Assembly: GCA_017465155.1 (NCBI GenBank) | Contig: JAFTWV010000001.1 | Coordinates: 1 to 63,201 of the forward strand | Length of the DNA: 63,201 nt | Source of the DNA: Clostridia bacterium | GTDB taxonomy: Bacteria; Bacillota; Clostridia; Christensenellales; Aristaeellaceae | Direction of reading: 5' to 3' | Shown here: one piece after another, positions 11,385-63,201 of the stretch | How the letters are laid out: every line of letters starts with the position of its first letter | How positions within the stretch are numbered: the stretch's first letter is position 1 | Notes under the pieces: model-generated | The model's database searches: none | What the model was told of the DNA's origin: nothing | What the model saw: the letters and a program-made list of their open reading frames with translations, nothing else | Program-made: the position numbers and the translations under genes

Positions 11385-11404
11385 CCCTGTCACCTCGCTG
11401 TTGA

Positions 11405-42428: not shown

Positions 42429-42490
42429 ACTATATGAACAGTGGGATAATATACTGCTGTGCATTTCGGATGTGAAACGGAGAGGTGCAA

Positions 42491-47431: not shown

Positions 47432-47474
47432 TGCAGGAATGCTGCGTGCGGATGCATTTGTCTGAATGACTTGC

Positions 47475-47526
47475 GGCACAGCCGCCCGGGATGATCGCAG
47501 GCCGATCCGGAACGGGCGACTGTGCC
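47475..47526 (+). terminator. Hairpin between adhesin and sortase genes
   Basis: GGCACAG and CGCCCG pair with CGGGCG and CTGTGCC around a large loop. T bases are few, so readthrough to the sortase is expected; it may set the adhesin-to-sortase ratio. Confidence 0.5.
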
Positions 47527-47561
47527 GTCTTGTACATGGCTGCTGAAAGGAGGAGACTCGT

Positions 47562-48467
47562 GTGCGGGCACGCAATTATTACCGCAAGCGTCCCAGCCCC
47601 TGGCCGCGGCGGATTCTGGCGGCGCTGCTGACGGGAATGCTCGCGTATGCAGCGGTAAGTCTCATCCGCTATGGGGTACAGCAGCAGCAATCCCGCGCCA
47701 TACAGGAAGAGCTGCAGGCGGCGATCTGCACGGAAATGCCCGTGGATACGCCGATTGTCACCGCGCCTCCTGCCGCGCAGGAGCAGAATACGCCTGCGTT
47801 CACTTCCGTGCCGCGTCCCAGCGCTACTCCGACACTGGAGCCCTGGCGTACGCCGGAGATCCTCTTTGCCTACCAGAGCCTGTATGAAAAGAACAACGAC
47901 CTGATCGGCTGGCTGAAGATGGATCGGCTCTATCGTGTTGATTTTGCGGTGGTGCAGCGGGATCAGGCCTACTATCTGCGCCGGGATTTTTACGGCAAGA
48001 GCAACATGAACGGCACAGCCTTTCTGGATGCAGCAAACAGGATCTGGCCCCGGGATGACAACCTGATCATCTATGCGCACAATATGAAGAGCGGCGAGAT
48101 GTTCGGTGAGCTGAAGAAGCTGATGAACGAAGTTTACTATCGTGAAGCGCCGCTGACACGGTTCAATACGATTTACGAGCGGGGGACATATGTGCCTGTG
48201 GCGGTGGTGCTGTGCACCGTGGCGCAGGGCGACGAATTCTTCAACTTCTACACGCGCAGCTTCCGCAATGCGGCGGAGTTCAACCGTTTCATTGACCGTG
48301 CGCGGGAGCTGTCGAAAGTTCATCCGCCTTATGATGTGCGCTATGGGGACGATCTGCTGACGCTCGTTACCTGCTATGACGATGCGGATACGCAGCGTCT
48401 GGTGGTAATCCTGCGCCGCGTCCGGGATGACGAGGATCCGGCGGTGCTGGCTGTCAGATGGAAATGA
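47562..48467 (+). CDS. Class B sortase (partner of the VPATG adhesin)
   Basis: 301 residues from a GTG start with AAAGGAGG at 8 nt. An N-terminal membrane helix at about 12-35 is followed by a Pro/Thr linker and the sortase domain. The catalytic trio is H173 (IIYAHNMKSGEMFG), C271 (LVTCYDD) and R279 (TQRLVVI). The H-N-M-x-x-G-x-M-F pattern and helix-rich inserts mark class B. It cleaves sorting signals of exported proteins and links them to the wall or to each other. Its position 130 bp after the adhesin suggests a dedicated pair. Confidence 0.92.
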   Translation: MRARNYYRKRPSPWPRRILAALLTGMLAYAAVSLIRYGVQQQQSRAIQEELQAAICTEMPVDTPIVTAPPAAQEQNTPAFTSVPRPSATPTLEPWRTPEILFAYQSLYEKNNDLIGWLKMDRLYRVDFAVVQRDQAYYLRRDFYGKSNMNGTAFLDAANRIWPRDDNLIIYAHNMKSGEMFGELKKLMNEVYYREAPLTRFNTIYERGTYVPVAVVLCTVAQGDEFFNFYTRSFRNAAEFNRFIDRARELSKVHPPYDVRYGDDLLTLVTCYDDADTQRLVVILRRVRDDEDPAVLAVRWK

Positions 48468-48702: not shown

Positions 48703-50508
48703 ATGAAGAAGATGCCTCGCGGTGTGCTGCTGCAGGCGGTGCTGCTGGCGCTGAGTCTGCTGGTGCTGCTGGTTCGTTCGTGGAACAGCAGCCAGCCGGT
48801 GCGGCCGCCGGTGAAGCCGCAGTCCTTTATCGGTGAATACAGCCGTGACGGAGCGAACTGGCAGGCGCTGGCGGAGCTTCCTGAAGACCTTGGCGAGTGG
48901 GACATGCTGTATCTGCGCGGAAACTTTGGCCGGACGATCAACGCAGACCGCGAGGTGTATTTCTATCTGGATCATCTGTGGATAACGCTGGAGGTGGACG
49001 GGCAGGAATGGCTGGACACCGTTCCGCAGACGCATGCAGATGCGCGGGACAGGTGCGGAAAGCGCTGGCAGGCATGGAAAAGCCCGGGCGTCGGAGAGGA
49101 TTCGCTGATCAGCATCCGGCTGCAGCAGGCGCACCGCTTCGGCAACAACGGGGCGTTCGAGGCGTTTCTGGAGTCGATTTATGTAGGCGACTCAATCATT
49201 GTGGAGGACATGCTTCTCCAGCAGGGACAGATGGCTCGGGTGACCGGCTATGTCGTGGGCATCCTGGCGGTTGCGCTGCTCAGCGGAGCGGTTGTGTTCC
49301 GGATGATGCATGTGCCGACGGGCAGCAGCCTGTGGGCAATCTCCATCAGCGCGCTGTCGATGTGCGGCTACATCGTGCTGGATACGCCGGATGTGTCGCT
49401 GTGGAATGATCTGATTGTGTTTAATACCTATGGCAAGCTTCTCAGCATGATGAACGCGGGCCTGGGGCTCCTGTCCTTTGCGTCGATCGGGATGAAAACG
49501 GCGGCGCGTCGGCTGAGCAGCTGGGTGATGACGGCACTGGGCCTGTTTGACGTGATGCTCCTCTTGCCGTGTCTGTGCGGTGTGGTGCTGATCTGTCATG
49601 TCGAGCCGTTGTGGCTCACGGTGCAGAGCGTGGCAGGCGTGCTGATCCTGGTGTGCTGCTTCTGCGAGCATCTGAATCATCGGCCGAAAAGGGAACAATG
49701 GCTGCAGGTATTTGGACAGTTTGAGTTGATGATTGTGCTGACGGACAGCGTGCTCTGGCTGCATGGCTGGCAGTATGGCGGATGGGGCGCCAAGATCGGC
49801 TTCATTGTGCTGTATGTGACCTATTTGCTGTGGGTGCTGTGGGAGCTGCCGGAGAAGTACCGGCAGGCTATGCGCGCCACGGAGATGGAACGGGAGCTGC
49901 AGGAAAGCCGCATGCAGATGATGCTCAGCCAGATCAAACCGCATTTTCTGTACAATTCCCTGACGGCGGTCATGGATCTGTGCGACCGGGATCCCCGCAA
50001 GGCGAAGCAGGCGATCGTTGATTTTTCGCGTTATCTGCGGGCAAACCTGGATTCCCTGACCTGCAGGAAGCTGGTTCCCTTTGAAAGGGAACTGCGGCAC
50101 ACGCAGGTGTATCTGCGGCTGGAGCAGCTGCGATTCGGCGACAGGCTGAAGGTGTGCTATGATATTCAGGCGGAGCATTTCCTGCTGCCGGCGCTGTCCC
50201 TGCAGCCGCTGGTGGAAAATGCCGTCAAGCATGGCCTGACTGCCAAGGCGGAGGGCGGCACGATTACCATTGCAGTCCGGGCTGAAGCAGAGGGCATATG
50301 CATTACCGTGACGGACGACGGCATTGGCTTTGACGCCGGTGCGCAGGCAGCGGAGGAACGAACTCATGTTGGCCTGCAGAATGTACGGGAGCGCCTGTCA
50401 GCCATCTGCGGCGGTACGCTGACAATCAACAGCACGCCGGGCAGCGGTACTGCTGCACAGGTGTACATCCCAAAGGAGATCAAAAATGAAGATTATGGCG
50501 ATCGATGA
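48703..50508 (+). CDS. Sensor histidine kinase with extracellular domain and multi-helix membrane region
   Basis: 601 residues. An N-terminal helix (about 8-27) leads to an extracellular region to about 170, rich in beta strands and Trp, resembling the jelly-roll sensor of 7TMR-DISM proteins. About seven membrane helices follow (175-385). The cytoplasmic kinase belongs to the LytS/YesM-type His_kinase family: H414 in QIKPHFLYNSL is the phosphorylation site, and LVENAVKHGL plus DDGIGFD bind ATP. Its 3' end overlaps the response regulator gene by 23 bp. It probably senses an outside ligand and controls the pilus operon that follows. Confidence 0.9.
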   Translation: MKKMPRGVLLQAVLLALSLLVLLVRSWNSSQPVRPPVKPQSFIGEYSRDGANWQALAELPEDLGEWDMLYLRGNFGRTINADREVYFYLDHLWITLEVDGQEWLDTVPQTHADARDRCGKRWQAWKSPGVGEDSLISIRLQQAHRFGNNGAFEAFLESIYVGDSIIVEDMLLQQGQMARVTGYVVGILAVALLSGAVVFRMMHVPTGSSLWAISISALSMCGYIVLDTPDVSLWNDLIVFNTYGKLLSMMNAGLGLLSFASIGMKTAARRLSSWVMTALGLFDVMLLLPCLCGVVLICHVEPLWLTVQSVAGVLILVCCFCEHLNHRPKREQWLQVFGQFELMIVLTDSVLWLHGWQYGGWGAKIGFIVLYVTYLLWVLWELPEKYRQAMRATEMERELQESRMQMMLSQIKPHFLYNSLTAVMDLCDRDPRKAKQAIVDFSRYLRANLDSLTCRKLVPFERELRHTQVYLRLEQLRFGDRLKVCYDIQAEHFLLPALSLQPLVENAVKHGLTAKAEGGTITIAVRAEAEGICITVTDDGIGFDAGAQAAEERTHVGLQNVRERLSAICGGTLTINSTPGSGTAAQVYIPKEIKNEDYGDR

Positions 50509-51268
50509 TGAGCGCGCTGCGCTGAACGTACTGTGCAGTGCCATCCGTGAAGCGGAACCGGAGGCGGAGATCGCTGCGTTTCAGTCGCCGGCAGAGGCGC
50601 TGAAGCATGCGCAGGAATCGGCGTTTGACGTGGTATTTCTGGACATCAGCATGTATGAGATGAATGGTCTGGAGCTGGCGCGCCGTCTCAAGGAGCTTCA
50701 TCCGCACCTCAATTTTATCTTCGTGACCGGCTATGGAGAATATGCGGGCGAGGCGATCAGTATCCGTGCCAGCGGATACCTGCAAAAACCCGTTACAGCG
50801 GAGGATGTGTCGGAAGAGCTGCGGAATTTGCGCTATCCCCTGCCGAAGGAGCGGGCGATGATCGAGGTGCAGACCTTCGGTCATTTCGAGCTGTTCGTAC
50901 ATGGACGGATGGTGTCCTTCCCGCGGGCAAAATCCAAGGAACTGCTGGCATATCTGGTCGACCGGCGGGGTGCCGGCGTGAGCCGCAAGGAGATCGCAGC
51001 TGTCCTGTTTGAGGACAAGGCATACACCCGCAGCACGCAGGATTATGTCAATCATGTGATCAGCGATCTGCTGCATGCCCTGAAGGCGGTGCATGCTGAG
51101 CAGATGATCATTCGCAGCCGCAACAGCATTGCGGTGGATGTGGAGTGCTTTGCCTGTGATCGTTATGACTACGAGCGGGGCGATGTACAGGGCCTGAACG
51201 CCTTCCGGGGCGAATATATGGCGCAGTACAGCTGGGCGTCGGAAACGGAGGCGCTCTTCTATCGCTGA
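50486..51268 (+). CDS. Response regulator with SARP-like DNA-binding domain
   Basis: 260 residues. The receiver domain (1-118) has the acidic pair D7-D8, the phosphoacceptor D53 (VVFLDIS) and K101 (LQKPV). The C-terminal half (about 128-255) has an OmpR/SARP-like winged helix (TFGHFELFVHG, KSKELLAYLVDRRGAGVSRKE, NHVISDLLHAL) with little of the usual BTAD extension. This type is unlike the LytTR or AraC regulators commonly paired with LytS/YesM kinases. The direct repeats at 51291-51312 just downstream are its most likely target, by inference. Confidence 0.88.
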   Translation: MKIMAIDDERAALNVLCSAIREAEPEAEIAAFQSPAEALKHAQESAFDVVFLDISMYEMNGLELARRLKELHPHLNFIFVTGYGEYAGEAISIRASGYLQKPVTAEDVSEELRNLRYPLPKERAMIEVQTFGHFELFVHGRMVSFPRAKSKELLAYLVDRRGAGVSRKEIAAVLFEDKAYTRSTQDYVNHVISDLLHALKAVHAEQMIIRSRNSIAVDVECFACDRYDYERGDVQGLNAFRGEYMAQYSWASETEALFYR

Positions 51269-51365: not shown

Positions 51366-52970
51366 ATGCGCGGAAACTGGCGCAAACGGCTTTGTTATGT
51401 GATCGCGCTGACCGTATTGCTGCTTCCGATCACGCAGCGCTGGCCGGAAGGAACAGCGCATCCGGCATATGCGGACGGTATCACCAGCAGTACGGATCTG
51501 CCGGAGGATAAGGTTACGGAAGCCCCGACGGCCACGCCCGTCCCGACGGAAGCGCCCACGGAAGCCCCGACGGTCACGCCTGTCCCGACGGAAGCGCCCA
51601 CGGAAGCCCTGACGGCCACGCCTGTCCCGACGGAAGCGCCCACGGAAGCCCCGACGGTCACGCCCGTCCTGACGGAAGCGCCCACGGAAGCCCCGACGGT
51701 CACCCCCGAACCCGAACCGACCGGGGAGCGGCGCAGTGGATACGCGCTGCTGCAGGGTGGTGTGATGCTCTGGGCAAACCGGCAGCGTACGGAGGAGCTG
51801 GGCAGGACGTCTGGCGCGGTGTTTGTGTGGGTGCCGGATACGGCGGTATCAGCAAAGACCTATAAGGTGATGTTCGATACGGCAGAGACAAAGCAGAGCG
51901 GCTCGTGTCATACGGCCTATGTCCGGGCGAAGGATGTGGACTGGCTGTTTGAATCGGAGAGCCGCAAGGTGATCACCCGGCTGGAGAAGCAGGATGTCCG
52001 CAGAGCCGGCGGTGCGTTGATTCCGGTGATCTCCGTGGTGTACAGCATCACGCCTGCGCCCGCGGCGACCCCGACAGTCACGCCCGTGCTGACAGCGGAG
52101 GTCACGGCAGCCCCGACGGAAACGCCTGCCCCGACAGCGGAGGTCACGGCAGCCCCGACGGAAACGCCTGCCCCGACAGCGGAGGTCACGGCGGCTCCGA
52201 CGGAAATGCCTGCCCCGACAGCGGAGGTCACGGCGGCCCCGACGGAAACGCCTGCCCCGACAAAGAAGGTCACTGCGAGCCCGACGAAGAAGCCTGTGAA
52301 GCCTGCTGCGACGGCCGCACCGTCTCCTGCGCCTTCGGCTGCGGGGCGGGAAGACAGCGATCGTTTGACCACGGAAACAGATTTGACGACGGCGACGCCT
52401 GTGTCCACGCCGGTGCGTATTCCCGTACAGGAGCCGGTTACCGGGACGGATCTGGTCACGCCTGCGCCGCAGATGACCGTTGTTCCCGCAACGCCTGTGC
52501 CGCCTGCGGAGACGCCCGCTGTTCAGCTAACGGCAGCGCCTGTGCCCATGCTCACTGCTGTTCCGCCCCTTGTAACGGCGGCGCCGCAGCAGAATACGGC
52601 CACGGATACCGACTTGCCCGGCGACAGCCAGGATGTGACCACCGGCACGGATCTTGCGCCGGAGCAGCCCAAGCTCTCGGCAGCGGAAATGAAGGCGCTG
52701 CTGGACGTTACCCATCCTGACCGTCAGCTGACGCTGCGTATTACCTGCACCAACATCTATTATACCGTGGGCAGCAGGATGAGCCTGTGGGCGGATGTGA
52801 CGGGTTATGACGGCTTGGAATACCAGGTGATCTGGGAGGTAGACCGCGGCGATGGCTGGGTCAATGCAGGCATGGATGGTCTGCCGGGATTTACCTTCAT
52901 CATCACGGAAGAAAATTGTCGCTGGAACTGGCGCGCAGGCGTCAGTGTGACCAGCACTGAAACGGAGTAA
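51366..52970 (+). CDS. Secreted Pro/Thr-rich protein, first gene of the pilus operon
   Basis: 534 residues. ATG has AAGGAGG upstream. A signal peptide at about 1-37 (cleaved near AYADG) is followed by a Pro-Thr-Glu repeat stretch (about 50-118), a folded domain at about 120-235 (SGYALLQGGVMLWANRQRT), a longer Pro/Thr/Ala stretch to about 440, and a C-terminal domain of about 95 residues with beta strands and several Trp (ITCTNIYYTVGSRMSLWADV). No sorting signal or membrane tail, so it should be released or attached by another component. A pilus tip or wall-bound accessory role is a guess; I do not recognise the folded domains. Confidence 0.8.
   Translation: MRGNWRKRLCYVIALTVLLLPITQRWPEGTAHPAYADGITSSTDLPEDKVTEAPTATPVPTEAPTEAPTVTPVPTEAPTEALTATPVPTEAPTEAPTVTPVLTEAPTEAPTVTPEPEPTGERRSGYALLQGGVMLWANRQRTEELGRTSGAVFVWVPDTAVSAKTYKVMFDTAETKQSGSCHTAYVRAKDVDWLFESESRKVITRLEKQDVRRAGGALIPVISVVYSITPAPAATPTVTPVLTAEVTAAPTETPAPTAEVTAAPTETPAPTAEVTAAPTEMPAPTAEVTAAPTETPAPTKKVTASPTKKPVKPAATAAPSPAPSAAGREDSDRLTTETDLTTATPVSTPVRIPVQEPVTGTDLVTPAPQMTVVPATPVPPAETPAVQLTAAPVPMLTAVPPLVTAAPQQNTATDTDLPGDSQDVTTGTDLAPEQPKLSAAEMKALLDVTHPDRQLTLRITCTNIYYTVGSRMSLWADVTGYDGLEYQVIWEVDRGDGWVNAGMDGLPGFTFIITEENCRWNWRAGVSVTSTETE
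51520..52265 (+). repeat. Two blocks of 42-bp Pro/Thr repeats
   Basis: In 51520-51715 a unit encoding EAPTEAPTVTPVPT recurs every 42 bp. In 52098-52265 a second 42-bp unit encodes TAEVTAAPTETPAP. Copies are nearly identical within each block. Confidence 0.85.
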
Positions 52971-52976
52971 GAACAG

Positions 52977-55900
52977 ATGAGAAAACTGTGCAAGCGCATT
53001 TTCACACTGCTGTCAGCCCTTGTGCTGCTGACGGCTGTGTTTCCTGCGCTTGCAGAGCAGCTGGTGGAGTATTCGGAAGGCGTGTCAGTGCTGGATATGC
53101 GTGCTGCAGCAGGCTATGATACGGATCTGTACGTCTGCATCGACAATGAATGGGTCGACGTCGGCGATGCACTTTCGGGGAAAAGCAAGGTTAACTGGCT
53201 GGAGTATTGTACGGTCAACCTGACGGATATTCAGGCGCAGTTTGTGCCATTCGGCTTCGATCCTGACACATACGAGCCAGCAAACCGGCTGTTCCCCTAT
53301 ACGAGCAACGGCGGCACGTCTCCCTCTTCGCAGATTCTGGGAAGCTGGGGCAATAAATCGCTGATCCCTCTGGGGTTTGACAGCTGTGATTCCTATGCTG
53401 TTTACTACACGCCGAGCTGGCCCGGCTCTGAAACCAGTGCGACGGCCAGCAGCCTTGCCCAGACGAACTCCTTCTATACAATCAGCGTTGCCGGTCTGGC
53501 AGATGACGATCTGGCTGCGGTTGATTACGGCGATGCGTACGACACGGATTATGGCCGGCTGGTGTATACCGGCGACACGGCGACGATCACCGTGCCCAAG
53601 AGCGAGTCTCGCCAGTGGAGCTGCGCGGGAACCTACGAGTCGGTCAGCGAGACAGAGACGGACACGGCTGTCACCTATACCTTTACGAATGTTGCCGGTC
53701 CGCTGACACTGACCGCCGAGGAAGCCGAAACGATCAACGTGACGGTGCAGCAGCTGGGGCTGAACGGCAGCGTCCTCCTGACGCAGACCTATGCCATCGA
53801 GCCGGGCAGCACGCTCCCGGCGGAGGCGCTCACCGGCTTTGACAGCCAGTATTCGTGGTATGACGAGGATGGAAACCGCATTGACAGCCCCTCGACCAAG
53901 ACATTCTCTGCCGATGCGACCATCACGACCAGACCCACTGCGGTCACCAGCGGCGCGGGCGCAAACTTCTATGTGTATCTGGACGGCGCCTGGAAGCAGG
54001 TCGGCTCGACCAGCACGCTCTACGGCCCGTACAATACAAACGGCGCCTATCGCTATCTGATCGGCATCAGCCAGATGGAGGCTGCCTTTGCACCCTACGG
54101 CTTCGATGCGGATTCCTACAACAGCGCTTCCGACCGGCGGTTTGTCTACAACTATCAGGGCAACAAAGCCGTCTGGGCGGATACTACGTCCATTGAGTAC
54201 TACGGCGATTGGGCGCTGCCCCTGAGTTCGGGCCTGTCCGTCTACGATGTGTACTACCTGCCTGACAATACTTCGGATATCTACGGCAGTCAGGTGAACA
54301 ATTTTGCAGCTGCCAACGCCTTCTGGACCATCACCCTTACCGAGGAAGCGACCGGCGCGACGGCGACCTTCATCCTGGAGGAAGAAACGGTTCTGAGCCA
54401 GTGGCTGGCGGAGCGTGCCGATACGAAGCTGCCGGGCTGGAGGGAACCGCTGGGCAGCTTCACCTGGACGGATACGGATTCCGGCGCTGTCCTTTCGGAC
54501 ACAGATACTGCAGCGACCGTTCACAACCTGACCGGTGCGGTGCCGACTGTCACCATCACGATGGTGGATAAGGCCGGCAACGTTCTGGGTACGGTGGAAA
54601 ACGTGCGTGTCGGGCAGGCACTGGCGGACTGGCTGGCCAACAATGACAGCATGACCCTGGCAGACGGCACTGTCCACCATTACTACTGGAGTCTGCCGAC
54701 GGATACGGCCATCAGCAACCAGATCATCACGGAAGATACGACGATCATCGGCACGAGGAAGCCGGTCTACACTGTCCGCTTCCATGACACGAAGCCTGAT
54801 GGCAGCGAAGCTGCGGGCGGCGAGTTCCAGAATGACGACGAGGCATATACCAGCATCACCGTTCTGGAGGGTGATTCCATCCCGGCGGCCTTCATCACCC
54901 GCATGCGCAACAACCTGACCGTTTATGACGATTATGCTTTCCTTGAGTGGCGTTATCCGGGCAATGAGGGATATCTGATTCTGGATCAAAACGCTACTGT
55001 CGTATCGGATATGGATGTGTGGGCGGCCTATACCCAGCAGGTGTATGTCCGATTCTGGAAGACCAATGCCATGAAGGAGACCTTCCCGGAGACGGGCAGC
55101 GAATCATGGGCGGTCGGTACGCCTTATACAGGCGCCATGCCGGATGACAGTACGATTATGGCCAATGCCCCCGTGGCAGGCATGCGATTCCGCTACTGGG
55201 TGGACGTCAACACGGGCCGTGTATTCACCATCGCCACGGATGACGTGACGGATAACACTGACCTGTACCCGGTATACGAGCGCGCAATCTTCCGCTTTAC
55301 CGATGCGGACGGCCAGGCGCTGACGGCGCTGTACGACGGTGACAGCCTGATGTACGACGCGCCGGAACGCGAGGGCTGGTACTATGCCGGACTGCAGGTC
55401 GAAACCGCAGACGGCGGCACGGTTGTTATCCCCAACGGCACGCAGATCAGCCGGGAGGCGCTTGAGGCGCTGGGTGTTGTTGCGGGCGACAGCACGGATG
55501 GCGTGTATACCATCCCGGCAGAGCCTGTGTACAACCCGCGGCGTACGGTGGTCTATCATACCGGCGCAGATGCTCAGTTCATCCTTTATGGCGCGGAGTC
55601 GTCGGAGAGCTACACGGTACAGGTGGATAACGAGCTGATCCTGCTGGGTGCACTGGACATCATCAACACAACCAGCCCCATCGGTCTTGCGCTGGATGGC
55701 TGGACGACCGTGAAGGGCTCCACGACGGTGGAATTTGCGCCCAATGCCTCCTTTGAGGGGGAAACCGAGCTGAATACGCTGGTGGGCGCAGGCGAAACGG
55801 TGCATCTCTACCCCGTGTGGGCGCAGCAGACCAATACCATTGCCATCACCTTCGTCTCCAACTATCCGGACGACGCGGTGGACGCGAACAACAATCTGTT

Positions 55901-58265
55901 GACCGAGCGGAGTTACACCATCTACATCAAGGAGGGTTCCAAGCCCACCATGCCTACTCTGGCCAAGACGGGCATGGTCGAGCCGTCCAACACCTGCAAC
56001 GGCACCCAGCAACGTTACCTGCTGGCGGGCTGGTCGCTGGATCAGGACGGTAAGCTGGACAGCTCCGATACGGATTACACCGAGAAGAACGGTACCTATA
56101 CCGAGGGCAGCCAGTACCTGCACTCGATCGATGAGAACAAGACCTTCTACGCGGTCTGGGTCGACCGAGCGCCGGAAACCACCGAGACCACGGCCGCCTT
56201 CCACATCCGTCTGGACGGCACGCTTCCCATCGAGCCCAGCCAGTACACCCAGTCGGGCTACCTTCCCGGCGCCTGCTCGGGTACCAATGCCTGGTACGGC
56301 ACCATCAAGAAGCAGATCAATGTCGTCAACGATGTGGCGCGTGTGGAGGCCAACATCCTGACGGAGCCGGACATTCCGACCATTTACGCTGCCCTTGCCG
56401 CCAACAGCAGCTACTCGGCCAAATTCGCCAACCTGACGGAGGACGATTACGGTACCAAGTGGTGGATCGACTGGTACGCCTGTAAGTTCTCCTGCGGTTA
56501 CCATTACCATGTAGACGGCCGCGTGCGCTTTGAGGATCAGGTGGAGCTGAATTACCATGCCAACGGCGGTTCGAACGTACCTGCTGGTACCGTGCATGAC
56601 AAGGACACGTGGACGACGGTCAATAAGACGCGTATCCCTGTACGTGAGAATTTCACATTCATCGGCTGGGACGAGGATCCGGCTGCGACGGTACCGGATT
56701 ATCCGGCCAGCGGCCTGAGCTTCCCCACCTCTCCGAATCTGAGCGACATCTATATGGACACGGACAAGGATCTGTACGCCATCTGGAAGCCGAATCAGAT
56801 TACCATTCCCATGGATCAGGACTTCCAGGGCATGAAGTATGAGCAGACCAACAGCGCTGCTGCTGCGCCGGCAGGCACAGCGGGCCGTTACAGCTTCACC
56901 ATTGAAGCGGTCTCTCTGCCTGAGGGTGCTGCCAGCTATGCCAAGCGAACGGTTGCCAACAAGGCGGACGGTACCTTCACCTTCCCGCAGATTCAGGTGC
57001 AGGTTCCCGGCATGTACGTCTTTGAGGTGCGCGAGGTCATCGGCGATGATGCTGTGCAGTACGATACCGCTGTGTATCGCCTGACCATCAACATCGTCCA
57101 GAGCGATTACGGTCTGGGCATCGGCGGTTACTCCTTCACGAAGAACAACAAGATCATCACGGTCACGGAGAACAATGTGGACAATGTGGTGTTTGAGTTC
57201 ACCAACCGTACAGATCTGCGCAACGTCACGGCCACCAAGGTATGGGATGACGGCGAGGATCAGGATGGTCTGCGGCCTGCAGCGGTTAACGTGACGCTGC
57301 ACCGCGTGGGTGATTCGCTCTTCAGCGATACGCAGACGCTCAGTGCTGCCGGTGGCTGGACGTACACATGGGAGGATCTGCCCATCAAGAACAGCAGCGG
57401 TGAAATCTATGCCTACATGATCACCGAAGAGCCGGTGGCTGGCTACGAAACGTCCTACAGCGGCGACATGAACACGGGTCTGATTGTCACCAACAGCCGT
57501 GAACCTCTGCTGGCCGATTTCCCGGTGGAGAAGACCTGGGCAGACAAGGACAACGCATACGGTTACCGGCCGGAAAGCATCGCCTACACCATCGAGGGCA
57601 CAACGCCGGACGGCATCGTCGTCGCCCGATATACCAGCACGGTGACGGCGCCGTGGGAGCATACCTTCGAGGATCTGCCCCTGTTCAGCAAGGGAAATCC
57701 CGTGACCTACACGCTGACGGAGGCGGCCATTGACGGCTACCGGGGCGATGTAAGCGTTTCGGTGACGGCCAATGCGGATGGCGGCAAGAGCTTCTTTGTG
57801 ACCAACACGCTGCTGCTCACGCCTGTGACGGTCACCAAACAGGTGGCAGGCAATGCAGCCGATCAGGACGCCATGTTCGACTTCACGGCGCTGGTCTATG
57901 ATGCAGACGGCCGCACGGTGACCGGATTGCCGGAGGGCGAAGGCTACACTGTTGATGCGGATGGCACGCTGCGCTTCAGCCTTGCCCATGGGCAGAGCGT
58001 GAAGCTGGAGCGGCTGCCGCTGGACGGCGAGATCCTGCTGCTGGAGAACAGCGGCGACTACGAACTGGAATGGTCATCCGGCGCATCGGTGACGGATGAC
58101 GGCGCGTGCTACGCCATTACGGAAGGTCTGGCCGTCACAGCGACAAATCGACTGGCGGCGGAGATTCCCACGGGCGTCACGCTGGACGTCGAGCCTTACC
58201 TGCTGCTGCTGGGCTTCAGCCTTGCAGGCATGCTGGGTTGGCGATACAGAAGGAGGAGTGCCTGA
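52977..58265 (+). CDS. Large pilus-associated adhesin with duplicated N-domain, FctA-like and Cna_B domains
   Basis: 1762 residues. A signal peptide (1-27) is followed by two related domains at about 42-178 and 328-465 (both contain a YV-[IV]-x-x-W-x-x-VG start and an APYGFD or VPFGFD turn). A long region to about 1270 contains InlB-like repeats (FIGWDEDPAA) and a Cys/Trp-rich segment (WWIDWYACKFSCGYHYH). An FctA-like isopeptide domain lies at about 1275-1410, two Cna_B domains at about 1415-1605, then a final beta domain. I1730-PTG-V, a hydrophobic helix and an RYRRRSA tail match FctA-type sorting signals. It probably fills the Cpa role (tip adhesin). No thioester Cys-Gln motif was seen. Confidence 0.88.
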   Translation: MRKLCKRIFTLLSALVLLTAVFPALAEQLVEYSEGVSVLDMRAAAGYDTDLYVCIDNEWVDVGDALSGKSKVNWLEYCTVNLTDIQAQFVPFGFDPDTYEPANRLFPYTSNGGTSPSSQILGSWGNKSLIPLGFDSCDSYAVYYTPSWPGSETSATASSLAQTNSFYTISVAGLADDDLAAVDYGDAYDTDYGRLVYTGDTATITVPKSESRQWSCAGTYESVSETETDTAVTYTFTNVAGPLTLTAEEAETINVTVQQLGLNGSVLLTQTYAIEPGSTLPAEALTGFDSQYSWYDEDGNRIDSPSTKTFSADATITTRPTAVTSGAGANFYVYLDGAWKQVGSTSTLYGPYNTNGAYRYLIGISQMEAAFAPYGFDADSYNSASDRRFVYNYQGNKAVWADTTSIEYYGDWALPLSSGLSVYDVYYLPDNTSDIYGSQVNNFAAANAFWTITLTEEATGATATFILEEETVLSQWLAERADTKLPGWREPLGSFTWTDTDSGAVLSDTDTAATVHNLTGAVPTVTITMVDKAGNVLGTVENVRVGQALADWLANNDSMTLADGTVHHYYWSLPTDTAISNQIITEDTTIIGTRKPVYTVRFHDTKPDGSEAAGGEFQNDDEAYTSITVLEGDSIPAAFITRMRNNLTVYDDYAFLEWRYPGNEGYLILDQNATVVSDMDVWAAYTQQVYVRFWKTNAMKETFPETGSESWAVGTPYTGAMPDDSTIMANAPVAGMRFRYWVDVNTGRVFTIATDDVTDNTDLYPVYERAIFRFTDADGQALTALYDGDSLMYDAPEREGWYYAGLQVETADGGTVVIPNGTQISREALEALGVVAGDSTDGVYTIPAEPVYNPRRTVVYHTGADAQFILYGAESSESYTVQVDNELILLGALDIINTTSPIGLALDGWTTVKGSTTVEFAPNASFEGETELNTLVGAGETVHLYPVWAQQTNTIAITFVSNYPDDAVDANNNLLTERSYTIYIKEGSKPTMPTLAKTGMVEPSNTCNGTQQRYLLAGWSLDQDGKLDSSDTDYTEKNGTYTEGSQYLHSIDENKTFYAVWVDRAPETTETTAAFHIRLDGTLPIEPSQYTQSGYLPGACSGTNAWYGTIKKQINVVNDVARVEANILTEPDIPTIYAALAANSSYSAKFANLTEDDYGTKWWIDWYACKFSCGYHYHVDGRVRFEDQVELNYHANGGSNVPAGTVHDKDTWTTVNKTRIPVRENFTFIGWDEDPAATVPDYPASGLSFPTSPNLSDIYMDTDKDLYAIWKPNQITIPMDQDFQGMKYEQTNSAAAAPAGTAGRYSFTIEAVSLPEGAASYAKRTVANKADGTFTFPQIQVQVPGMYVFEVREVIGDDAVQYDTAVYRLTINIVQSDYGLGIGGYSFTKNNKIITVTENNVDNVVFEFTNRTDLRNVTATKVWDDGEDQDGLRPAAVNVTLHRVGDSLFSDTQTLSAAGGWTYTWEDLPIKNSSGEIYAYMITEEPVAGYETSYSGDMNTGLIVTNSREPLLADFPVEKTWADKDNAYGYRPESIAYTIEGTTPDGIVVARYTSTVTAPWEHTFEDLPLFSKGNPVTYTLTEAAIDGYRGDVSVSVTANADGGKSFFVTNTLLLTPVTVTKQVAGNAADQDAMFDFTALVYDADGRTVTGLPEGEGYTVDADGTLRFSLAHGQSVKLERLPLDGEILLLENSGDYELEWSSGASVTDDGACYAITEGLAVTATNRLAAEIPTGVTLDVEPYLLLLGFSLAGMLGWRYRRRSA

Positions 58266-58597
58266 TGGATGCCCATGAGGAAAGCCTGAACCCGAAGCAG
58301 TCCCGACGGCGCAGGGCGGACAAATCTCCTGCGGCGCCTGCGGGGCCTGCGCTGCCCGAGAATCCCTGGCAGAAGAAGATTGCCGACTGGCTCGGCAAGC
58401 TGAAGCTGCGCAAGGTTATGTTCGGCGGCGTGAGCGAGAAGCAGGTGTGGAAACGCATCGGAGAGCTGAACGAGATGTATCAGGCGATGCTCCAGGCGGA
58501 GCGTGCCCGATACGAGGTGCTGCTGCATCAGCAGCAGATCACCATGGATCCGCAGACGCCCTATCCTGATCCCGAAAAGGGAGGTGAGAGCGCTTGA
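58265..58597 (+). CDS. Small coiled-coil protein of the pilus operon
   Basis: 110 residues, with no signal peptide or membrane helix, so cytoplasmic. The N-terminal 45 residues are basic and Pro/Ala-rich; residues about 58-96 form a predicted helix or coiled coil (VSEKQVWKRIGELNEMYQAM, then RARYEVLLHQQQ). ATG overlaps the previous stop (TGATG) and has GAAGGAGG at 8 nt; its stop overlaps the next start (TTGA). The tight coupling to the SipA-like gene suggests a joint task in pilus assembly, perhaps localising the machinery. Family not recognised; distantly DivIVA-like in build. Confidence 0.8.
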   Translation: MDAHEESLNPKQSRRRRADKSPAAPAGPALPENPWQKKIADWLGKLKLRKVMFGGVSEKQVWKRIGELNEMYQAMLQAERARYEVLLHQQQITMDPQTPYPDPEKGGESA

Positions 58598-59136
58598 CAG
58601 GTTCTGAGCAGCGCATTGCACGCGTCATTGCGAAGCGGCGCGACCAGGTTCTTGCAAGGCAGGAGACATGGGCGCTTGTGCGGCGTGTGCTGCTGCTGGC
58701 AGTCATTGCCTTTGCGGCGCTGACGCAGGTGTTCCTGATCACACAGGTGGATGGGCAGGAGATGTTTCCTGCCGTGAAGGACGGTGATCTGGCGCTGGTC
58801 TACCGGCTGCAGCGCAGCTACATGCGCGGCGACGTCGTGGCCTACGAGGTGAACGGTCAGATGCGGTTCGGTCGCATCGCCGGCATGCCGGGGGACGAGG
58901 TGGCCATCAGCACCAATGGCACGCTGCTGGTCAACGGTCTCATCCAGAGCGGCGAGATCCTGTTCCCGACCGAGCCCCGCAATGGGGAGGCCTTCACCTG
59001 CAGCGTTCCTGACGGCTGTTACTACATTCTGGGTGATTACCGTACCCAGGCGGAGGACAGCCGCGACTTTGGCCCCGTTCCTGCACAGGATATGACGGGT
59101 AAGCTCATCACCATCCTGCGCCGAAGAGGTCTGTAA
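58594..59136 (+). CDS. SipA-like pseudo-signal peptidase (pilus assembly)
   Basis: 180 residues from a TTG start with GGGAGG upstream, coupled to the previous gene. One membrane helix lies at about 31-50, followed by the type I signal peptidase fold: RGDVVAYEV, RIAGMPGDEV and YYILGDYRTQAEDSRDFG are all there. The catalytic serine position (G-x-S-M-x-P) is E56 in GQEMFP, and the general-base lysine position (K-R-x-x-G-x-P-G-D) is G93. It therefore should not cleave. Streptococcal SipA of the FCT pilus locus has the same double loss (Asp and Gly, from memory) and acts as a pilus-assembly chaperone; that role is inferred here from homology and position just before the major pilin. Confidence 0.9.
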   Translation: MTGSEQRIARVIAKRRDQVLARQETWALVRRVLLLAVIAFAALTQVFLITQVDGQEMFPAVKDGDLALVYRLQRSYMRGDVVAYEVNGQMRFGRIAGMPGDEVAISTNGTLLVNGLIQSGEILFPTEPRNGEAFTCSVPDGCYYILGDYRTQAEDSRDFGPVPAQDMTGKLITILRRRGL

Positions 59137-59142
59137 ACAAAG

Positions 59143-59171
59143 GTATCAAGCCGAAATGGCTTCGTTGATAC
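59143..59171 (+). other. Hairpin in front of the major pilin ribosome site
   Basis: GTATCAA and GCC pair with GGC and TTGATAC around a short loop, ending about 6 bases before the GAGGAGG of the pilin gene. It may stabilise or mark a processed pilin mRNA 5' end. Confidence 0.5.
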
Positions 59172-59193
59172 AATGAATGAGGAGGAAATCACC

Positions 59194-60171
59194 ATGAAAA
59201 AGTTTCTTGCGATCCTGCTGTCCATCATGATGCTGCTGGGCATGACCGCTGCGATGGCGGAAGAAGGCGGCGAAGAACAGACGCCCGTGCAGACGACGGC
59301 TATCGAGAAGGTCTACACCGGCATGCTGCCCGTGGGCGACACGCTGACCTTCACCATTGAGTGCGTGGAGACCGTCGGCGTTGCGTCTGACACGCCCTAT
59401 GTGACGCTGGGCGCCGCCACCGAGAACGGTACGTATGAGTACACCGTTACGGAGAGCGATGACCTGACCAACAGCATCGCGCTGAATGTCACCTATCCCG
59501 AAACCTACGGCACCTACACCTACAAGATCACCGAGACTTCCACCGGCAACACCAATGTTACCGCTGTGAAGGATACCGTGTATCTGCAGGTTTACAACCT
59601 GAAGGACAGCGGCAAGGGCTGCACGGTTGTCGGCGCTCCTGACGCGACGGACACGACCAAGAACGATACGTTCGAAAATGCCTACGCTGTGGGCTCTGTC
59701 GAAGTGACCAAGAAGATCACCGGTAACGCGGCCAACTATACTGATACGTTCCCGGCGACCATCACCCTGACCTCTGATAAGCCCCTGACCGGCGCGGCAC
59801 TGCAGTGGGACGGCGCGGATATCACCTATACCCTTGTGCCGGACAGCACGTACAAGTATTCCATTGCTGTCACGCTGGGCGGCGCGGAAGAGAGCACCAA
59901 GACGCTGACCGGTGTGCCTGTGGGCGTGACGGTCGAGATTGCCGAGGATGAGGCTTCGCTGAACGGCTACACGGCTAATGTGACGGGCAATGGCGCGGCT
60001 GTTGCTGCGGACGCTGCAGCAAAGCTGGAGGTCACCAACGAGAAGTCCACCGACATCCCCACCGGCGTGTACATGGACTATATCCCCTACGTCCTGCTGC
60101 TGGCTGTGGCCGTGGCTGGTCTGGCGGGCTTCGTGGTCAAGCGTCGTCTGGCTTCCCGCGACGAGGACTGA
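59194..60171 (+). CDS. fctA-like: FctA-like major pilin
   Basis: 325 residues. ATG at 59194 has GAGGAGG at 8 nt. Signal peptide MKKFLAILLSIMMLLGMTAA (cleaved near AMA-EE). Domain 1 (about 35-165) has the FctA/Spy0128 pattern: Lys in AIEKVYTG, GTYTYKITE with the catalytic Glu, and Asn in FENAY, so a Lys-Asn isopeptide bond is likely. Domain 2 (about 168-285) starts VEVTKKITG and ends LEVTNEK, giving the same trio. I288-PTG-V, a hydrophobic helix and a KRRLASRDED tail form the sorting signal, close to the VPTG type of streptococcal FctA. Presumed to polymerise into the pilus shaft by the sortase encoded next. Confidence 0.9.
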   Translation: MKKFLAILLSIMMLLGMTAAMAEEGGEEQTPVQTTAIEKVYTGMLPVGDTLTFTIECVETVGVASDTPYVTLGAATENGTYEYTVTESDDLTNSIALNVTYPETYGTYTYKITETSTGNTNVTAVKDTVYLQVYNLKDSGKGCTVVGAPDATDTTKNDTFENAYAVGSVEVTKKITGNAANYTDTFPATITLTSDKPLTGAALQWDGADITYTLVPDSTYKYSIAVTLGGAEESTKTLTGVPVGVTVEIAEDEASLNGYTANVTGNGAAVAADAAAKLEVTNEKSTDIPTGVYMDYIPYVLLLAVAVAGLAGFVVKRRLASRDED

Positions 60172-60190
60172 GTTTTTCATTGAAACAATG

Positions 60191-60217
60191 CCCGGGGCTT
60201 GAGTCATCAGGCCCCGG
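60191..60217 (+). terminator. Hairpin after the major pilin gene (attenuator)
   Basis: CCCGGGGC pairs with GCCCCGGG around a 12-nt loop, 20 bp past the stop, without a T-run. It probably gives partial termination or 3' protection, so more shaft pilin than sortase or anchor is made. Confidence 0.6.
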
Positions 60218-60294
60218 GGGTCATCTCAGCAGCCGGTTCCGGCGGGCTGCTGACATGGCCCCTGAGAGGATTCCAAAGAGAAAGGAGCATCGCC

Positions 60295-61068
60295 GTGCAG
60301 CGTAAGATCGTCCGGTTCATCAATGGTGTCGTGTCCGCCGCAGAGGCGCTGATCCTGATCGTTATTATGCTTTATGCCGTGTATGCACTGTGGGACAACC
60401 AGCATGTTTACAACCGTGCCAGCAACGTGCAGAGTGAACTGCTGGCCTTCAAGCCCGCGGAGGAAGAGGAAGCAGGTCCGTCCTTTGATGAGCTGCAGAC
60501 GCTGAATCCGGATGTATGTGCGTGGGTGACCATGGAGGGAACCCGCATTGACTTCCCCGTGGTACAGGGCAGCAATAATTTTGAGTATCTGAGCCTTGAT
60601 GTTTACGGCAAGTTTTCCCTTGCCGGCAGTATCTATCTGGATTCCCGGAATGGGCGCGATTTCGGCGATGCGTACTCCCTGCTGCATGGACATCATCTGG
60701 ATCAGGGGCGCATGTTCGGCGACCTTGACCTGTATAAGCAGCGGGATTTCTTTGACGAGCATACCACCGGTACGCTCATGACGCCTGAGGGAAGCTATGC
60801 GTTGGAAGTCATGGCGTATCTGCTTGTCCGTTCGACGGACGATGTGATTTTTGCACCGCAGCACTGGCGCGAGGATGCCTCCGAGTTGTTGGCGTATGTA
60901 CAGGAGCATGCTGTCTATACCCATGAAGAGGTACTTGCCCGTGCAGCAGCCATGTCCTCTGAGGATGCGGCGATGCTTTGTCTGGCAACCTGTTCTACGG
61001 AGTATACCGACGCCCGGACGATCATCCTGTGCCTGATGACAGCGAACGGACAGGAGGTGTCGCCATGA
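60295..61068 (+). CDS. Class B sortase of the pilus operon
   Basis: 257 residues from GTG at 60295 with AAAGGAG at 7 nt. An N-terminal helix (about 13-33) anchors it outside the membrane. H133 (LLHGHHLDQGRMFGDL), C233 (LATCSTEY) and R241 (DARTIIL) form the catalytic set, class B in pattern. In streptococcal FCT loci the pilus polymerase is likewise a class B-type sortase acting on VPTG-type signals, so this enzyme probably links the FctA-like pilins and attaches the adhesin. Its stop overlaps the next start (ATGA). Confidence 0.92.
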   Translation: MQRKIVRFINGVVSAAEALILIVIMLYAVYALWDNQHVYNRASNVQSELLAFKPAEEEEAGPSFDELQTLNPDVCAWVTMEGTRIDFPVVQGSNNFEYLSLDVYGKFSLAGSIYLDSRNGRDFGDAYSLLHGHHLDQGRMFGDLDLYKQRDFFDEHTTGTLMTPEGSYALEVMAYLLVRSTDDVIFAPQHWREDASELLAYVQEHAVYTHEEVLARAAAMSSEDAAMLCLATCSTEYTDARTIILCLMTANGQEVSP

Positions 61069-62822
61069 GCCGCCGAATAACAGCTGTCGTGCTGCTGCTT
61101 GTGCTGCTGATGCTGCTGCTTCCGGGCAGTGCATTGGCAGCGAGCGTCAGCCTGCCCGTAACCGTACAGATCACCGGCAGCATTCCCGATGTGGCGGAGC
61201 GCTTCACCATCGTGCTGGAGGCAGCGGGGACAGAATGTCCCATGCCTGGCGCAGCGCAGGGCGGCAGCGTGAGCATGATCCTGACGGGCGGAACCAGCGG
61301 AACGTTCCCCGCCATCAGCTATGATGTACCGGGAGATTACCACTATACCATCCGCCAGCTCCCGGGAGATGCGGAGCTGTGCACTTACGATGCCTCCGTG
61401 TTCCTGGTGGAGGTGTGCGTCGTCCGTACGGAAGACGGATTGTATCCTGTGGTTGTGGTTCAGGAAAAGGTTAACGGCGTGAAGCTGGACAGCATCACGT
61501 TCATCAATGATTACCTGCCGCCGCCTACGCCTACACCGCCGGGGTTCACGACGGTCACGCCTGTACCGGGTGTAACGGTTACGCCGGTTCCGGATGTGAC
61601 GGTCACGCCCGTCCCCGACGTGACGGTTACGCCTGTGCCTGATGTGACGATTACCCCTGCGCCGGAGGCAACCGTTACGCCTGTGCCCGAGGTGACGGTC
61701 ACGCCGCTCCCGGATGTCACAGTCACGCCTGTACCTGATGTGACGGTTACGCCCATTCCGGATGTAACGGTTACCCCTGTGCCGGATGTAACGGTTACGC
61801 CGCTTCCGGATGTCACAGTCACCCCCGTCCCTGATGTGACGGTTACGCCGCTTCCTGACGTGACTGTCACCCCCGTCCCCGATGTGACGGTTACGCCCAT
61901 TCCCGACGTAACGGTTACCCCTGTGCCGGATGCGACGGTTACGCCGATTCCTGACGTGACAGTTACGCCCATTCCCGACGTAACGGTTACGCCGCTCCCT
62001 GACGTGACGGTCACGCCTGTGCCTGATGTGACGGTTACACCGCACCCCGGTGTGACCGTTACCCCTGTCCCAGACGTAACGGTTACGCCGCTTCCCGGCA
62101 CAACGAATACACCTGTCCCCGATGTGACGGTTACACCTGTACCTGATGTAACGGTGACGCCCGTGCCTGATGCGACAGTTACGCCGATCCCTGACGTGAC
62201 AGTCACGCCTGTACCTGATGCGACGGTTACGCCGATCCCTGACGTGACAGTCACGCCCGTGCCTGATGCGACGGTTACGCCGATTCCTGACGTAACGGTT
62301 ACGCCCGTGCCCGATGCAACGGTTACGCCGATTCCTGACGTAACGGTGACACCCGTGCCTGATGCGACGGTCACGCCGATCCCTGATGTGACAGTCACCC
62401 CCGTGCCTGATGCGACGGTGACGCCGATCCCTGACGTAACGGTGACGCCCGTGCCTGATGCGACGGTCACGCCGATCCCCGACGTGACGGTCACTCCTGT
62501 ACCCGATGCGACGGTTACGCCTGTGCCTGATGTGACAGTCACGCCTGCACCTGATGCGACGGTGACGCCCGTGCCTGATGTGACGGTCACACCTGTGCCT
62601 GACGTGACAGTCACGCCTGTCCCTGATGTGACGGTCACGCCCGTTCCCGGTGTAACGGTCACGCCTGCACCGACGGTGCGTCCCACGCCCGACCCGGATC
62701 TCCCGCCCACTGGCGTGGAGGATTATTGGATGTTCTATTTAGGCGGCGCTGCTGTGCTGGTGCTGGTCGCAGGCTTGATGCTGCGGATTATCCTTCGTCC
62801 GGAGCGGGATCGTGATGAGTAA
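61065..62822 (+). CDS. fctB-like: FctB-like anchor pilin with long Pro/Thr/Val stalk and LPPTG signal
   Basis: 585 residues. ATG has CAGGAGG at 7 nt. A signal peptide (1-27, ending ALA-AS) is followed by one FctA-like beta domain at about 28-150 (DVPGDYHYTIRQLPG, TFINDYLPPP). A stalk of about 47 eight-residue units (VTVTPVPD type) runs from about 162 to 537. L546-PPTG-V, a hydrophobic helix and a RPERDRDE tail end the protein. Domain plan and position after the sortase match FctB, the basal pilin that fixes the fibre to the wall, but FctB lacks so long a stalk; here it may span a thick wall or capsule. Confidence 0.88.
   Translation: MSRRITAVVLLLVLLMLLLPGSALAASVSLPVTVQITGSIPDVAERFTIVLEAAGTECPMPGAAQGGSVSMILTGGTSGTFPAISYDVPGDYHYTIRQLPGDAELCTYDASVFLVEVCVVRTEDGLYPVVVVQEKVNGVKLDSITFINDYLPPPTPTPPGFTTVTPVPGVTVTPVPDVTVTPVPDVTVTPVPDVTITPAPEATVTPVPEVTVTPLPDVTVTPVPDVTVTPIPDVTVTPVPDVTVTPLPDVTVTPVPDVTVTPLPDVTVTPVPDVTVTPIPDVTVTPVPDATVTPIPDVTVTPIPDVTVTPLPDVTVTPVPDVTVTPHPGVTVTPVPDVTVTPLPGTTNTPVPDVTVTPVPDVTVTPVPDATVTPIPDVTVTPVPDATVTPIPDVTVTPVPDATVTPIPDVTVTPVPDATVTPIPDVTVTPVPDATVTPIPDVTVTPVPDATVTPIPDVTVTPVPDATVTPIPDVTVTPVPDATVTPVPDVTVTPAPDATVTPVPDVTVTPVPDVTVTPVPDVTVTPVPGVTVTPAPTVRPTPDPDLPPTGVEDYWMFYLGGAAVLVLVAGLMLRIILRPERDRDE
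61551..62675 (+). repeat. About 47 tandem 24-bp repeats (8-residue VTVTPxPD units)
   Basis: The period is 24 bp, encoding V-T-V-T-P-[VIL]-P-[DG] with a D-V or D-A alternation. In the second half (about 62150-62510) units alternate regularly between VTPVPDAT and VTPIPDVT, a 48-bp higher-order repeat, pointing to recent block duplication. Confidence 0.95.
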
Positions 62823-63201
62823 GAAGAAGCGCCTTGCCGCGCTGATCATGGTGCTGTGCCTTGCGGCAGCGGTGTTCCTGTGCTGTCTGGCGATGCAGGA
62901 GCTCCAGGATCGCAAGGCAGGAAAAGATTACTATGCAGAGCTCCTTGCACAGATGCAGCCGCCGATGCTGACGGAGCAGGCAGTTGCTTCCACAACGGAA
63001 ATGCCTACGCCTGAAGCAACGGCAGCAGTGTCCCCGACGGCTGCCCCAACGGCGACGGAAATGCCCACGCCTGAAGCAACGGCAACAGTGTCCCCGACGG
63101 CTGCCCCAACGGCAACGGAAGTGCCCACGCCGACCGCAACGGCAGCAGTGTCCCCGACGGCTGTCCCAACGGCAACGGAAGTGCCCACGCCTGAAGCAAC
63201 G
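62815..63201 (+). CDS. Membrane-anchored protein with Pro/Thr linker, possibly a further sortase (3' truncated)
   Basis: The frame is open to the window end (129 codons seen). ATG at 62815 has GGAGC 9 nt upstream and overlaps the previous gene by 8 bp. A basic N-terminus and helix (LAALIMVLCLAAAVFLCCLA) are followed by QELQDRKAGKDYYAELL, which resembles the segment after the membrane helix of class B sortases, then a Pro/Thr/Ala linker. No catalytic domain is in view, so the sortase call rests on this short likeness and on position. Confidence 0.5.
   Translation, partial: MSKKKRLAALIMVLCLAAAVFLCCLAMQELQDRKAGKDYYAELLAQMQPPMLTEQAVASTTEMPTPEATAAVSPTAAPTATEMPTPEATATVSPTAAPTATEVPTPTATAAVSPTAVPTATEVPTPEAT
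62998..63201 (+). repeat. 60-bp tandem repeats at the window edge
   Basis: A unit encoding TEMPTPEATAAVSPTAAPTA repeats exactly every 60 bp (near 63001, 63061, 63121 and 63181) and continues past the window. Confidence 0.9.

Follow-up and report, generated by a model that had tools for sequence, protein, structure and literature searches.

This study revealed that a pilus gene cluster of a gut bacterium of the Clostridia encodes, directly upstream of the signal-peptidase homologue SipA, a soluble protein of 110 amino acids (aa), here called CC, which probably works together with SipA. The cluster occupies the end of a 63,201-base contig (C20, the whole of which is the window analysed here) of a 2.80 Mb, 136-contig genome rated 68.5% complete. 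From position 51366 to the contig end, all genes lie on the plus strand, in the order PT1, a 1762-aa adhesin, CC, SipA, a pilin of 325 aa, the class B sortase, the FctB-like anchor and, last, the beginning of another gene. Our overall reading, to which we assign a probability of roughly 0.6, is that this is an FCT-type pilus whose assembly is clustered or placed by CC, acting as a cytosolic adaptor of SipA. The sequence evidence comprises the gene content and order, the loss of catalytic residues from SipA, the pairing of CC with SipA, a link between CC and the SipA tail, and a weak profile match of CC to the DivIVA/GpsB family. FCT-type pili in Clostridia are already in print; CC is the less ordinary part of the locus and may tell the cell where to build the pilus fibre.

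Pairing of CC with SipA

Of 150 relatives, the window's own genome included, 12 carry CC, and its neighbourhood was read in 11 loci; on one 3.8-kb contig (L027), just CC and a response regulator are visible. A scan of named genomes returned 68 CC loci across Clostridia, Erysipelotrichia and Coriobacteriia, ten of which are, judged by length, the same contigs as relatives already counted. SipA directly follows CC in 66 of these loci, and the remaining two contigs stop 145 and 39 bases past CC. Where more than 3.5 kb could be read downstream (53 CC loci), FctA was present in 52, a sortase in 53 and FctB in 46. The carriers outside Clostridia include a Holdemanella metagenome-assembled genome (Erysipelotrichia) and Coriobacteriia such as Parafannyhessea umbonata. 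Named isolates carrying CC include Anaerobutyricum hallii DSM 3353, Extibacter muris DSM 28560, Dorea phocaeensis Marseille-P4003 and Parafannyhessea umbonata 105184, so that removal experiments have named hosts. The first-pass annotation had described CC as a cytoplasmic protein coupled to SipA and as an addition to this locus. Its solubility and adjacency to SipA hold, whereas the local addition turned out to be a regular SipA neighbour across these pili.

A membrane-helix-like stretch occurs in none of the 68 CCs, and 14 positions, including the start Met, are invariant or nearly so over 69 rows. The differences to two relatives, L030 and L031, concentrate in third codon positions (18/16/36 for CC against L030), so that CC and SipA behave as real genes; a chance open reading frame (ORF) at the position of CC was ruled out by this bias and by the locus-wide pairing. 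No Pfam or NCBIfam model matched the window CC, and the 69 CC members gave scattered weak matches to these collections, none in more than five members. CC thus gives annotators a family to name. A sequence search of the PDB returned nothing convincing for CC (best 0.43 and 0.33), and a plasmid search returned no CC match; with SipA, the plasmid search gave 16 matches, all below 60% identity, the annotated ones being named signal peptidase I. PADLOC left the window CC unmatched and gave weak coil matches for the long CC of genome G300. A search with this long CC recovered the protein itself and otherwise coils in long ORFs, mostly of about 815 aa, which were taken for ClpB by length alone. Two CC-profile matches away from SipA were taken for chance, one in G621 (2.4e-5, in a 712-aa frame) and one in G1073 (2.5e-4, in a 294-aa frame, with no SipA in its 1.5-kb flanks).

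CC might instead serve secretion or translation, either as a chaperone of the pilins before export or as a coupled leader gene tuning SipA levels. Such a role would suit a small, soluble protein whose gene lies so near that of SipA; by a generous measure, which takes the nearest possible start codon of SipA, the two overlap in 48 of 66 loci. Nevertheless, the conservation described above lies in the CC protein sequence, and CC tracks SipA and its tail more than FctA; we consider this role highly doubtful.

Some carriers depart from the usual arrangement. L067 (10101-11054) has just the first third of SipA, which then continues in frame into FctA, through either a deletion or an assembly fault. 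In Candidatus Excrementavichristensenella intestinipullorum (L088 / L023), CC is kept, the SipA frame continues into FctB, FctA and the first sortase are absent from the cluster and one sortase is left. L209 (G1194) exhibits another gene order, with an FctB-like gene preceding CC and a sortase directly after SipA.

The Arg-rich tail of SipA

With regard to SipA itself, the window protein matched the Peptidase_S26 profile (2.6e-21), and its best PDB sequence matches were SipA 4n31 (1.5e-27) and its namesake LepA 4k8w (1.7e-26), signal peptidases I being far weaker (best 2.1e-9). Glu stands at the position of the catalytic Ser and Gly at that of the catalytic Lys, replacements which rule out an active peptidase. 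S. pyogenes SipA is described as having Asp and Gly at the two sites (PMC4049620). Among the named SipAs of the CC group, Lys is kept in 0/67 and Ser in 9/67, L067 being cut short at that point. The named SipAs share an N-terminal tail before the membrane helix with the core [IV]IxxRR, and Arg occupies one column in 65 of 66 rows. The tail consensus, [ST]xxx[IV]IxxRR, is Arg-rich and lies near the membrane.

Wider SipA searches covered 299, 391 and 296 genomes, with cut-offs of 1e-20, 1e-32 and 1e-30, respectively. Genome-wide, CC was sought in the sets of 299 and 391 genomes; profile searches covered the fetched loci, and a further CC search covered 67 relatives of G836. In the set of 296, CC was sought in the fetched loci, and genome-wide just where genomes recur among the G836 relatives. 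A locus is called "without CC" when there is no CC profile hit up to 900 bases upstream in the fetched flank. The alignment of SipA (A3) contains 48 of 63 trimmed named rows and the window. Four loci were left out of the tail and tree test, namely L130 (the same gene as L172 10477), L159 (at a contig start), L183 (350 bases upstream) and L067 (SipA cut short), as were L158 and L177, which are copies of L038 and L085. When the tail was written as a regular expression, 5 of 70 CC-bearing rows escaped it, and 2 of 21 rows without CC and 2 of 5 true peptidases matched it; a profile was therefore used. Held-out CC-bearing SipAs scored 14.8 (G781), 9.5 (G836), 4.3 (G1194) and 3.2 bits (G300). Of 21 held-out SipAs without CC nearby, that of G575 reached 4.4 bits and the rest 3.0 or less, two being unscored.

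G300 has both kinds next to each other. In the first, a long CC with a coil like that of DivIVA (L172 10969-11637, on G300:C45) precedes a tailed signal peptidase homologue in which Ser and Lys are present; the second is a pilus locus whose SipA is inert and without the tail. CC therefore goes with the tail rather than with the loss of catalysis. In G575, the SipA pilus locus L170 lies within the CC clade on the ectodomain tree, lacks CC and has a tail of 4.4 bits, where the 66 training rows, scored with the model built from them, reach at least 27; a faded tail and a missing CC inside the CC clade fit a recent joint loss. G575 also has a second SipA, L159, which begins at a contig end with its upstream side cut off. 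Finally, with the SipA ectodomain controlled for, the distances of CC and of the tail are still correlated (partial r 0.33, p 0.001, 66 rows), as compared with 0.14 for CC and FctA (p 0.067, 41 rows) and 0.025 for the tail and FctA (p 0.35).

Joint inheritance of CC and tail within one SipA clade, with no functional link, would account for the fact that most CC loci fall in one clade and that CC changes just four times on the SipA tree. We consider it quite unlikely: on the tree, CC and tail coincide at three separate points (support for the deep forks is weak, and of the 92 inner forks of the ectodomain tree 45 are unsupported), G575 has its CC gone and its tail faded, and CC and tail show partial co-divergence. 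We lean towards the adaptor reading, in which CC would dock on the SipA tail.

Several observations speak against this adaptor reading. The tail scores truly overlap, two of the four held-out CC-bearing tails being no higher than that of G575, which has no CC. CC changes four times on the tree, and only one independent pair is starred, which is not enough for a sign test. CC also tracks the SipA ectodomain when the tail is held constant (0.335), and neighbouring genes co-diverge anyway; the co-divergence thus speaks for the CC-SipA pair more than for the tail alone. An inert SipA is not a requirement of CC, since Ser and Lys are both present in the SipA next to CC in G300. The tail does not conform to the strict motif of GpsB clients, SRxxR(R/K). 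Lastly, given 21 SipA loci without CC nearby and an ORF list for the pilus of C. perfringens VR-10B, discussed below, that leaves no room for CC as described, CC is not needed for every such pilus.

Weak likeness of CC to DivIVA and GpsB

The DivIVA-like domain is described as the motif RGYDxxEVD followed by heptads, the residue before GYD being most often R, then E or G, and the general motif is given as GY[DN]xx[QE]V[DN] (PMC9858780). The CC counterpart is GGV[SD]Ex[DQ]VW, in which Tyr and the second Asp are replaced mostly by Val and Trp. In DivIVA, these two residues pair across the dimer. The solved DivIVA 7o39 is also without both, having Leu and Ala there. Counted from the Val, the heptad core of CC shows [IL] at +4 in 70/73, [LIV] at +7 in 73/73 and Tyr at +11 in 72/73 rows.

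Profile-profile alignment with hhalign gave a weak match that is nevertheless in register. Against the 29 DivIVAs of the clade itself, CC scored 13.2 and 14.1. With four PDB sequences added, the score was 15.0 (1/60 shuffles as high), and 17.3 once one CC Gly column had been removed (0/60). Seven GY-type sequences, which were chosen after the first weak score, gave 21.5 and 22.6 (0/60 shuffles each), compared with 9.6 and 9.8 for the reversed profile and 13.9 for the best of 63 ClpB windows used as a control. A set of 18 identity-reduced sequences gave 17.4 with both Gly columns and 19.8 with one removed; the removal was our choice, both versions are given here, and the shuffles (0/80 as high) refer to the 19.8 version. 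Over 25 random subsets of this set, the score ranged from 11.1 to 24.8.

Other results weaken the case for such a relationship. The strict motif is absent from CC, Tyr occurring in 0/73 and the second Asp/Asn in 0/73 rows. Curated cut-offs were not reached: the best PF05103 value was 0.0089 (16.4 bits against a cut-off of 28), as the top Pfam match of the long G300 CC, and the best TIGR03544 value was 0.0092, each model matching at most 2 of 69 CC members among other scattered weak matches. For the score of 14.1 against the clade's own DivIVAs, 5/150 shuffles were as high; in the identity-reduced set, one shuffle of 80 reached 19.1; and the hhalign probability varied from 2 to 45%, depending on the DivIVA sequences chosen.

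These same points would suit a different explanation, namely that CC, though a partner of SipA, is a small helical scaffold unrelated to DivIVA, the likeness being coiled-coil convergence: CC has no curated family match, it lacks the motif Tyr and second Asp, and its profile scores are modest and vary with the set. Convergence accounts less well for a match whose register is kept through the loop, the Val and the core positions behind it, for the finding that 0-1 of 60-80 shuffles were as high in four of five pairs of CC and sequence set when wider sets were used, and for a score above the reversed profile and the 63 helical windows. We regard an unrelated scaffold as somewhat unlikely, and descent of CC from the DivIVA/GpsB family, as judged from the alignments, as a possibility just short of even. 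Given the negative curated profiles and modest profile-profile scores, we allow that CC may act in the manner of GpsB and may derive from proteins of this family, but we do not call it a member.

GpsB is described as an adaptor near the membrane which binds the Arg-rich cytosolic tails of wall enzymes (PMC6335420, which also gives the client motif named above), and it also helps to confine flagella (PMC12327844). Docking of CC on the Arg-rich SipA tail is modelled on the docking of GpsB on cell-wall enzyme tails. What CC shares with GpsB/DivIVA is thus the weak in-register profile likeness, an adaptor function on Arg-rich tails being a feature of GpsB as described; it differs in lacking the motif Tyr and second Asp, in its location in pilus operons, and in that both the window CC and the G300 CC fall below the family cut-offs.

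In FCT pili, a class B sortase is reported to link the pilins, FctB to end growth and a housekeeping sortase to attach the fibre to the wall; polymerisation requires SipA, which has been thought to act as a scaffold or chaperone (PMC7900414). In the pilus proposed here, the adhesin would sit at the tip, the FctA-like pilin would form the shaft, joined by the class B sortase, and the FctB-like protein would stand at the base. SipA, having lost Ser and Lys, would be an assembly factor, and CC its dedicated cytosolic partner, most likely docked on the Arg-rich tail inside the cell. By dimerising and contacting the membrane, CC could hold SipA tails from inside and so cluster the assembly site or place it at the membrane, perhaps at the division site, and the second sortase may take the last step, wall fixation. 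That CC places assembly in the cell is a tentative part of this model; a staphylococcal signal peptidase has been described as enriched at the septum (PMC11898559). More speculatively still, CC could be an overlooked DivIVA/GpsB branch in sortase-pilus operons of gut Bacillota and Coriobacteriia that docks on the Arg-rich inner tail of inert SipA and ties pilus assembly to the division site. If so, SipA would be the membrane link between an inner landmark of cell-cycle type and an outer sortase. A dedicated cytosolic partner and a conserved tail as its likely dock allow direct binding and localisation tests for SipA. Our searches of the open-licence literature listed no sortase pilus operon with a protein like DivIVA or GpsB, subscription papers and preprints being outside these searches.

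Core components and layout of the locus

The locus is almost certainly an FCT-type pilus locus, since four of its proteins (SipA, pilin, anchor and sortase) have sequence matches among solved proteins of FCT-type pili. The features are as follows.

51366..52970, plus strand: PT1, a secreted Pro/Thr-rich protein, first in the cluster, with no family match
52977..58265, plus strand: large tip-adhesin-like protein with Cna_B and DUF7601 profile matches and the sorting signal EIPTGVTLDVEPY
58265..58597, plus strand: CC, 110-aa soluble protein with an FGGVxExxVW core; its start overlaps the adhesin stop
58594..59136, plus strand: SipA, S26 signal-peptidase homologue with an Arg-rich cytosolic N-terminal tail; Glu at the Ser position, Gly at the Lys position
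59194..60171, plus strand: FctA-like major pilin, two domains, sorting signal IPTGV; K39-E114-N162 and K173-E251-N282, probable acceptor K156
60172..60294, plus strand: intergenic stretch with very stable hairpins 3' of the pilin gene, by shuffle test
60295..61068, plus strand: class B sortase, likely pilin polymerase, GTG start; profile and PDB sequence matches
61065..62822, plus strand: FctB-like basal pilin with a long TPVPDVTV-type stalk and an LPPTG signal; profile and PDB sequence matches
62812..63201, plus strand: 5' part of a second sortase gene with a Pro/Thr-rich stalk, interrupted by the contig end; the sortase part is assigned via a shared repeat and L017

All ORFs lie where the first-pass annotation had placed them, with small changes of the starts of CC (ATG 58265), SipA (TTG 58594), the class B sortase (most likely GTG 60295 rather than 60199) and FctB (ATG 61065, overlapping the sortase stop). 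The counterparts proposed there for SipA, FctA, class B sortase and FctB were borne out by profile and PDB sequence matches, and a Clostridia host agrees with the nearest named relatives, which are Clostridia metagenome-assembled genomes.

The pilin matched DUF7601 (2.4e-10) and FctA (7.1e-4; 20.8 bits, just below the cut-off of 22.1), and its best PDB sequence matches were T-antigen backbone pilins (T18.1, 2.5e-15). In an FctA alignment (A4) of 40 of 56 sequences and the window, K39, E114 and N162 are kept in 34, 35 and 39 of 41 rows, and K173, E251 and N282 in 41/41 each, which points to two isopeptide-type domains. These sets resemble the pairs K36-N168 and K179-N303 reported for the S. pyogenes pilin (PMC7900414). 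K156, which lies six residues before N162 and is kept in 34/41 rows, is the candidate acceptor lysine. The acceptor lysine of Spy0128 is K161. In the same alignment, most relatives have a distinct sorting signal, DTG[IV], where the window has PTGV, the Asp occurring in 36/41.

The class B sortase reached 165 bits with TIGR03064 (cut-off 153.75) and 25.2 with Pfam Sortase, just below 26.6; its PDB sequence matches were 4y4q (1.7e-33) and 3psq (2.1e-33), which is S. pyogenes Spy0129. The anchor matched the FctA profile (1.6e-7), and its N-terminal domain matched the T18.1 pilin (1.3e-8), then FctB3 8k6t (7.6e-6) and the pilus anchor 3klq (8.8e-6). Its sorting signal is LPPTG, and its stalk is built from 22.7 copies of a 48-base unit. 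The long stalk noted at first is a trait of the lineage, the FctB ORF having 610 aa in L017 and 287 aa in L018. The hairpins at 60172-60294 have a z of -4.6, with 0/200 shuffles as stable, and the 110-base stretch 3' of the pilin gene has a z below -2 in 26/53 relatives (40 rough shuffles each). They may keep pilin mRNA above sortase mRNA in abundance.

The adhesin matched Cna_B (6.7e-36) and DUF7601 (2.4e-8), and its C-terminus resembles pilus ancillary protein 1 (4.9e-11, 41.8 bits, far below the whole-protein cut-off). A PDB sequence search with its N-terminal part gave no match; this part (window 53055-54389) contains two copies, judged by eye, of a stretch of about 120 residues without a Pfam or PDB match. 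PT1 counterparts were found in L017, L018 and five further loci (3e-4 to 9e-24), low complexity making weaker matches unsafe.

Gene 62812 leaves the contig within a Pro/Thr repeat that recurs near the end of contig C112 (93 and 95% identity), where it leads into a sortase; C20 and C112 were left unjoined. In L017, a genome of the same genus, a sortase gene of the second-sortase type follows FctB (11308-12519). L018, also of this genus, has the gene order of the window and no second sortase before its contig end. The order is fully or largely kept in 8 of 9 other relatives' loci, apart from the genes missing in L023. A mis-assembled contig, a possibility raised at first, was rejected as unlikely given this recurrence in independent genomes, the same-genus L017 and L018 and most other relatives' loci.

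In S. pyogenes, the FCT gene order is Cpa, SipA/LepA, FctA, class B sortase and FctB. The window shares with the FCT-2/3/4 pilus the gene kinds and their order, the inert SipA, a two-domain isopeptide pilin, a class B sortase and an FctB-type anchor, and its best or near-best PDB matches are to proteins of this kind. It differs in having CC, PT1, a second sortase at the end and a long anchor stalk, in the DTG that replaces PTG in the pilin signal of most relatives (36/41), and in the Arg-rich SipA tail, streptococcal SipA tails being outside the comparison. A separate pilus lineage, as first proposed, is possible; the SipA tree, built without any named streptococcal SipA, places the window SipA in a large clade whose loci bear CC (SH-aLRT 92, not starred).

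The first-pass annotation overstated this point, as FCT-like class B sortase pili have already been published for Clostridia. C. perfringens VR-10B is described as carrying seven ORFs, called syntenic with streptococcal loci, that comprise CnaA, FimA, FimB, a signal peptidase, a class B sortase and a two-component system (PMC8088525). Compared by this description only, the VR-10B locus and the window share a Clostridia host, the signal peptidase, the class B sortase and a two-component system, which in the window lies just upstream; the seven ORFs leave no room for CC. This published locus without a listed CC, together with the match of the core parts to known FCT-type proteins, would agree with an ordinary FCT-type pilus whose extra genes are unremarkable. 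Against this stands the presence of CC beside SipA across three bacterial classes without a family model, and we regard an ordinary pilus as unlikely.

Just upstream of the cluster, at window 42485-48467, lies a second sortase-type pair. Its adhesin contains 14 Cna_B stretches and an adhesive domain of ice-binding-like type, and the sortase behind it scored 110 bits with the class B model, below the cut-off of 153.75. The two-component system is encoded at 48703-51268, between this adhesin/sortase pair and the pilus genes.

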